Assembly (NCBI RefSeq): GCF_010119195.1
Contig: NZ_WRXL01000001.1
Coordinates: 1 to 64,000 of the forward strand
From: Haloarcula salina
GTDB taxonomy: Archaea; Halobacteriota; Halobacteria; Halobacteriales; Haloarculaceae
Length of the DNA stretch: 64,000 nucleotides
Direction of reading: 5' to 3'
The number at the start of each line of letters is the position of its first letter. The stretch's first letter is position 1. Made by a program: the position numbers and the translations under genes. Of the stretch, positions 40,027-40,548 are shown one piece after another. Under the pieces are notes generated by a model, which searched no databases, was not told where the DNA came from, and saw nothing but the letters and a program-made list of their open reading frames with translations.

Positions 40027-40389
40027 TCACCGAAGCTCCTCGACCTTGTCGGCGATGTCCTCGACGTCGGCCTCGGCCTCGCCGGCGTCGGTGACGGCCG
40101 CGGCGGCCGAACCGACTTCGAGCCCGGCGGCGTGTCCGAGGTCGTCCTGCTGCTCGACGAAGATGAAGGGGACGCCCTTCTCGTCGGCCAGCTCGGGGAT
40201 GTGCATCACGATCTCCTCGGGCTGGACGTCTTCGGCGACGAAGACGAGCTCGGCGGAGCCGCGCTCGATTGCTTTAGTCGTCTCGTTGGTACCCTTCTTT
40301 ACCGAACCTGTGTCCCGGGCGACCTCGAGCGCCTCGAGGGCGTCGTCTTCGAGGTCCGCGGGAACGTCGAAATCTACGTATACTGGCAT
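40027..40389 (-). CDS. rpl7ae: Ribosomal protein L7Ae
   Basis: A 120-residue L7Ae, a large-subunit protein and core component of box C/D and H/ACA guide RNPs and RNase P that binds kink-turn RNA. The RNA-binding signature [20 protein letters not shown] and the hydrophobic [18 protein letters not shown] are present. The ATG at 40389 is chosen over 40410 because GGAGGTGA (plus 40398-40405) is a strong ribosome-binding site before it. That site and the distant promoter show a leadered mRNA, unlike most genes here; the leader has a box C/D-like fold and the protein may regulate itself. Confidence 0.95.
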
Positions 40390-40510
40390 TTTTACGTTCA
40401 CCTCCTGCACGCGAGCTCAGGCTCCCCCGCCGTGTCCGGGCGCGCGCCCGTCACGCCGTCTGGCGTGTTGTCCTGAGAAGGCTGGGAGCATCATCAACTC
40501 GGCGCAGGCT
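40390..40510 (-). promoter_or_regulatory. Structured rpl7ae leader with box C/D-like (kink-turn-like) element and ribosome-binding site
   Basis: On the minus strand the leader contains TGATGA (plus 40491-40496), then GCTCCC (40484-40489), which can pair with GGGAGC (40421-40426), directly followed by CTGA (40417-40420). Outside, GAG (40498-40500) can pair with CTC in GCTC (40413-40416). Thus box C and box D sequences face each other between two stems. Inside lie a hairpin CACGCC-AGAC-GGCGTG and the palindrome GGGCGCGCGCCC. The ribosome-binding site GGAGGTGA follows. Internal loop geometry is not a perfect canonical kink-turn. Confidence 0.5.
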
Positions 40511-40532
40511 GTACCCAATTCTGTGCCACCGG

Positions 40533-40548
40533 CCCTAAAAGCGCTTTC
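40533..40548 (-). promoter_or_regulatory. Promoter of the rpl7ae-rps28e-rpl24e-ndk operon
   Basis: The minus strand reads AAAGCGCTTTTAGGG, a BRE/TATA-like element about 145-155 bases upstream of the rpl7ae ATG. It predicts a leader of roughly 120 bases, consistent with the ribosome-binding site seen. Confidence 0.5.

Follow-up and report, generated by a model that had tools for sequence, protein, structure and literature searches.

A class-wide kink-turn leader before rpl7ae in Halobacteria and its probable role in L7Ae autoregulation

Does the ribosomal protein L7Ae limit its own synthesis in haloarchaea through the leader of its mRNA? The question was raised by a window of 64,000 nucleotides from Haloarcula salina (contig NZ_WRXL01000001.1, positions 1 to 64,000), in which an earlier note, made from the sequence alone, had described a box C/D-like fold upstream of rpl7ae as a candidate site for L7Ae. 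As the note had stated, L7Ae autoregulation through leader kink-turns is known in some archaea: it has been shown in Sulfolobus acidocaldarius, was supported for other archaea by an E. coli reporter, and was proposed for most archaea (Daume et al., 2017; PMC5539422). The regulatory hypothesis is thus not new in kind. High leader conservation was reported for Sulfolobales only (PMC5539422).

RESULTS

The rpl7ae Locus and Its Leader

The rpl7ae gene (40027..40390, minus strand) encodes L7Ae/eL8 (TIGR03677 match of 177 bits, above the cut-off) and heads the minus-strand gene order rpl7ae-rps28e-rpl24e-ndk. A TATA-like box at 40540-40536 places the transcription start near 40514 and, with the ATG at 40390-40388, gives a leader of about 124 nt, in agreement with the distant promoter and roughly 120-base leader described earlier. 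Leader positions are numbered from 1 (40514) to 124 (40391). The sequence elements of the earlier note were all present on the minus strand: TGATGA at 40496-40491 (leader positions 19-24), CTGA at 40420-40417 (95-98), the inner stem GCTCCC (40489-40484) with GGGAGC (40426-40421), the outer stem GAG (40500-40498) with CTC (40415-40413), and the Shine-Dalgarno (SD) sequence GGAGGTGA at 40405-40398. An in-frame GTG start at 40410 was rejected because the spacing to the ATG varies among relatives by non-multiples of three. The features of the leader are listed in Table 1.

Table 1. Features of the rpl7ae leader and promoter in the window, with the basis for each assignment.
Feature	Coordinates	Strand	Basis
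TATA-like box TTTTA, rpl7ae promoter	40536..40540	-	TTTA spacing in relatives
rpl7ae 5' leader, inferred transcription start to the base preceding ATG	40391..40514	-	R1 match, alignment A1
Outer helix (C-helix), 5' strand, with a single U bulged out at 40497	40496..40508	-	Seven pairs changed on both sides
Kink-turn three-base bulge GAU (L1-L3), last U invariant	40493..40495	-	GAU, CAU, UGU or CGU among relatives
GA of bulged strand (tandem G.A pairs)	40491..40492	-	Invariant in 78/78
Inner helix (NC-helix), 5' strand GCTCCCAGCC	40480..40489	-	Five pairs changed on both sides
Conserved apical AGGA	40471..40474	-	G42, G43, A44 in 74-76 of 78 rows
Variable apical region, two small hairpins in the window	40432..40470	-	Alignment A1; length varies widely by species
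Inner helix, 3' strand GGCGGGGGAGC	40421..40431	-	Covariation of the helix
GA of non-bulged strand	40417..40418	-	Invariant in 78/78
Outer helix, 3' strand GCTCGCGTGCAGG, terminating within the SD	40404..40416	-	C8-G110 invariant, C7-G111 always paired
SD AGGAGGTGA	40398..40406	-	Sequence; pairing of the first AGG predicted for almost every leader

The single-sequence folding energy of the leader was unremarkable (z = -1.19; matched by 21 of 200 shuffles), and comparative evidence must therefore decide. Covariance model R1 scored the window leader at 104 bits, the window being part of its training set.

Covariation of the Leader Helices

A protein scan of the genome contigs yielded 80 haloarchaeal rpl7ae loci, 79 of them with enough upstream contig. 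The same leader immediately preceded rpl7ae in the window and in 79/79 assessable loci. Alignment A1 comprised 78 distinct leader sequences, window included, and showed two helices, the outer one about 12 pairs long and the inner one nine. Altogether, 96.9% of cells were paired (outer helix 96.7%, inner helix 97.2%), a raw figure biased in favour of pairing because the structure was derived from the same sequences; double changes provide the independent evidence. Changes on both sides occurred in 12 of 21 pairs (seven outer, five inner), and 93 double-changed cells were observed against 17.9 in shuffles. With columns evolving independently along the tree of coding sequences, a tree-based null of 100 runs produced 10 ± 5 double-changed cells, never more than 27, and 3.8 both-side-changed pairs, never more than 7. 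When the partner strand was slid by one to three columns, pairing fell to 35-56%. Covarying examples in the outer helix included CCTGC/GCAGG, CCTAC/GTAGG, and CCGAC/GTCGG; pairs adjoining the kink-turn included GAG/CTC, GGG/CCC, and CGG/CCG. The two leader helices covary strongly, beyond both the shuffled and the tree-based nulls. The fold proposed earlier is real but larger than had been claimed, as its outer stem has about 12 pairs instead of three, its inner helix has nine, and the structure reaches the SD.

The apical region between the strands varied wildly in sequence and length, and AGGA was near-invariant in all A1 rows (AGGGA in some families). It was kept in leader L049 despite a hairpin inserted before it. 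AGGA might contact the 30S subunit or belong to a tertiary structure. The search for a pairing partner yielded none, and a UCCU/AGGA hairpin competing with the inner helix was rejected, its 87.5% pairing being at the shuffled level and without covariation.

Kink-Turn Register

Five bases of the core (T22, G23, A24, G97, and A98) were invariant in 78/78 leaders. Within TGATGA, the first GA (G20, A21) varied and the second was conserved. CTGA occurred in about a quarter of leaders; most relatives had GCGA, GTGA, TTGA, or TCGA, with only the GA invariant. The comparison that the earlier note had called for, covariation in both stems with the two boxes invariant, was thus borne out for the stems over the 78 leaders and failed for the boxes.

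The bulge contexts were GGGGU-CAU-GA in Halalkalicoccus, GGGGC-UGU-GA or GGGGU-UGU-GA in the Natronomonas type, and GGGGU-CGU-GA in others. In these relatives the pair before the bulge is C-G, U.G, or U-A, followed by a plain three-base bulge and then GA; the window's UU-GAU-GA is the same arrangement plus one bulged U. This extra U before the bulge was present in most leaders and missing in L025, L034, L044, L052, and others. The bulge variants GAU, CAU, UGU, and CGU, together with the invariant U, GA, and GA, fix a standard kink-turn register. As read from the alignment, it is a three-base GAU-type bulge followed by tandem G.A pairs, three bases further on than the box C/D reading, whose TGATGA and CTGA are not conserved units. 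The shift explains why the loop geometry had seemed imperfect.

Position 3n, which precedes the D-side GA, was C, U, or A and never G in the 78 leaders. Under the published rule, a 3n other than G indicates L7Ae-dependent kinking, so that folding on L7Ae would be expected, but the helices themselves are predicted to be stable, and 19 leaders had a C at 3b, a base that can promote ion-induced folding. One extra base lay beside the D-strand GA in 70 leaders and was lacking in eight (Haloferax/Halobellus group).

Shine-Dalgarno Pairing and the Inferred Transcription Start

At its far end the outer helix engages A109-G111 in pairing, and these three bases are the first AGG within the SD. Their mean predicted unpaired probability was 0.009, against about 0.48 in the GGTGA that comes next. 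In Haloferax the outer helix stops just short of the SD. The outer helix is predicted to be stable without protein.

The TTTA of the TATA-like box begins 24-27 nt before leader position 1 in 80/80 leaders (identical ones included), despite wide differences in total leader length; transcription therefore very probably begins just before the outer helix. At the inferred start, GTACA (40514-40510, minus strand) lies outside the helices and is 76-96% conserved; it is a possible initiator, and no covariation of GTACA with the SD was seen. RNAfold proposed that the conserved 5' UAC pairs with GUG in the SD; this is not supported, as UAC does not change in leaders that have GGAGA or GGAGC instead.

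Distribution and Copy Number

Of 292 Halobacteria genomes, 272 had a leader recognised by R1, and these covered 71 of 77 genera. Each genome had one convincing copy; in the window's genome only the rpl7ae site was strong. Sixteen missed or weakly scoring genomes were inspected, and 13 carried a version with the same helices that had been lost or weakened through a stricter filter or divergence. The other three (L141, L142, and L143; families f5 and f11) had a compact hairpin kink-turn directly before the l7ae SD, a form also found before the SD in four sampled genomes outside Halobacteria. The f5 and f11 lineages belong to the same order, yet carry only this compact, methanogen-like form. The distribution, drawn from few genomes, suggests an origin of the long leader within Halobacteria from a compact ancestor.

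Among 148 genomes of a phylum sample, R1 matched no l7ae leader outside Halobacteria, and its weak matches there were not located at l7ae. Further matches were judged to be chance: L083, where an MscS-like gene begins; L184, within a coding sequence; and L181-L183, where an oxidoreductase gene ends. On comparison of sequence words, mimicry of 23S rRNA was also rejected, the longest common word being only 10 nt and G/C-rich.

The nop5-fibrillarin genes were considered as a second L7Ae target. L7Ae-regulated nop5 has been reported in Sulfolobus and Thermococcus, whereas the haloarchaeal nop5-fibrillarin genes look leaderless, their TATA-like box lying about 30 nt upstream of the ATG. No kink-turn leader was seen by eye in their upstream regions (L149-L177), and the candidate was rejected.

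DISCUSSION

A Probable Autoregulatory Leader

From the observed structure, covariation, SD pairing, and TATA spacing we infer that L7Ae binds and represses, and that it does so by occluding the SD. It is likely, and we hold this with good confidence, that the ~124-nt leader acts as a translational autoregulatory element in which L7Ae would bind the kink-turn and lock the outer helix over the SD. L7Ae in excess of its ribosomal and sRNP sites would bind the leader kink-turn, formed by the GAU bulge and the tandem G.A/A.G pairs from GA 40492-40491 and GA 40418-40417. Bound L7Ae would clamp the outer helix and, with it, the first SD AGG, which is paired at the far end of that helix; 30S loading would then be poor and L7Ae synthesis would fall, perhaps along with that of S28e, L24e, and Ndk by coupling.

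L7Ae very probably limits its own production through this leader, judging by the covariation, the invariant kink-turn letters, the class-wide spread, the position before rpl7ae, the SD pairing, and the TATA spacing. Further support comes from the single PF01248 protein of the window's genome, which is L7Ae, and from published leader kink-turn autoregulation in other archaea (PMC5539422, PMC6298567). Class-wide conservation and covariation thus lend strong support to the autoregulation idea of the earlier note, which agrees with the published archaeal cases, whereas its box C/D form is not supported. Counting against the L7Ae reading are the extra base beside the D-strand GA in most leaders and the predicted protein-free stability of the outer helix, which contrasts with the published fold-on-binding model.

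Alternative Explanations

That the fold is a chance arrangement in G/C-rich sequence fits the ordinary single-sequence folding energy (z -1.19), and can practically be dismissed: covariation lies far beyond the shuffled and tree-based nulls, and 272 of 292 genomes have one strong site each, so that comparison already refutes it. The leader might also hold a guide sRNA of the box C/D type, either transcribed together with the mRNA or cut out of it, in which case L7Ae would serve 2'-O-methylation and not rpl7ae regulation. Box C/D sRNA kink-turns share the GA/GA core read by L7Ae, TGATGA and CTGA both happen to be spelled in the window, and short RNAs have been reported from the intergenic region adjoining rpl7ae in Haloferax mediterranei (PMC5852579). 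We nevertheless regard an sRNA as very improbable. The register is three bases off, neither box is conserved among relatives, no C'/D' boxes or guide sequence were visible on reading the window leader, the wildly variable apical region leaves no conserved guide, and the fold always abuts the rpl7ae SD.

Somewhat less remote, though still unlikely, is regulation of rpl7ae by another ligand (S28e, L24e, or another RNA-binding protein) or a ligand-free effect on mRNA stability. The product of the first gene is not always the ligand of ribosomal leaders, and the conserved AGGA is an additional element. Against this, the bases that never vary match a kink-turn exactly, the window's genome has L7Ae as its only member of the family that reads kink-turns, and the same gene has kink-turn leaders in other archaea (PMC5539422).

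Relation to Known Leaders

Like the l7ae leaders of S. acidocaldarius and Archaeoglobus fulgidus, the haloarchaeal leader combines the same gene, a GAU three-base bulge, tandem G.A pairs, a 5' leader position by the SD, and a 3n that is not G. The GAU-bulge register has been described for other archaeal l7ae leaders, including the A. fulgidus case (Huang et al., 2019; PMC6298567). The haloarchaeal leader differs in being about three times longer, with a ~12-pair outer helix running into the SD, a 9-pair inner helix, variable apical hairpins, the AGGA, and predicted protein-free stability. The Haloferax volcanii construct of Daume et al. was ~50 bp and had a substitute bulged strand, and its legend notes a Kt-b strand lying further upstream in those authors' alignment (PMC5539422). 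In the Haloferax leaders L075 and L076 the bulged strand lies about 100 nt upstream of the ATG, beyond the reach of a ~50 bp fragment.

Covariation-supported, class-wide leaders of archaeal ribosomal genes were described by Eckert and Weinberg (2020; PMC7247131) for S15 in Halobacteria, eL15, and L4; these concern other genes and structures, and no halobacterial L7Ae leader is among the 20 new motifs. Against Rfam 15, only tRNAs matched in the window, with no meaningful leader match up to E = 10. As far as the searchable literature goes, the haloarchaeal architecture, covariation, register, spread, and AGGA are new; the principle of L7Ae leader autoregulation, proposed in 2017, was already known (PMC5539422).

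A more tentative proposal, which we think doubtful, is that haloarchaea enlarged a compact ancestral l7ae kink-turn by a long, salt-stable, SD-containing outer helix and the apical AGGA, L7Ae arbitrating between pre-folded states. AGGA would then perhaps be a 30S standby site or a tertiary contact, and L7Ae would choose among folded states rather than induce folding of an unstructured RNA.

Few cis-regulatory RNAs are known in archaea, and here a class-wide, covariation-backed leader has a defined kink-turn. The kink-turn strands are now placed in haloarchaea, and the alignment and model are good enough to propose an RNA family. Haloferax and Haloarcula are genetically tractable, which makes L7Ae feedback testable in its own host instead of E. 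coli. For Haloferax mediterranei, the table of PMC5852579 lists short RNAs on both strands beside rpl7ae (entries HM10_V and HM9_V), which could be leader-derived.
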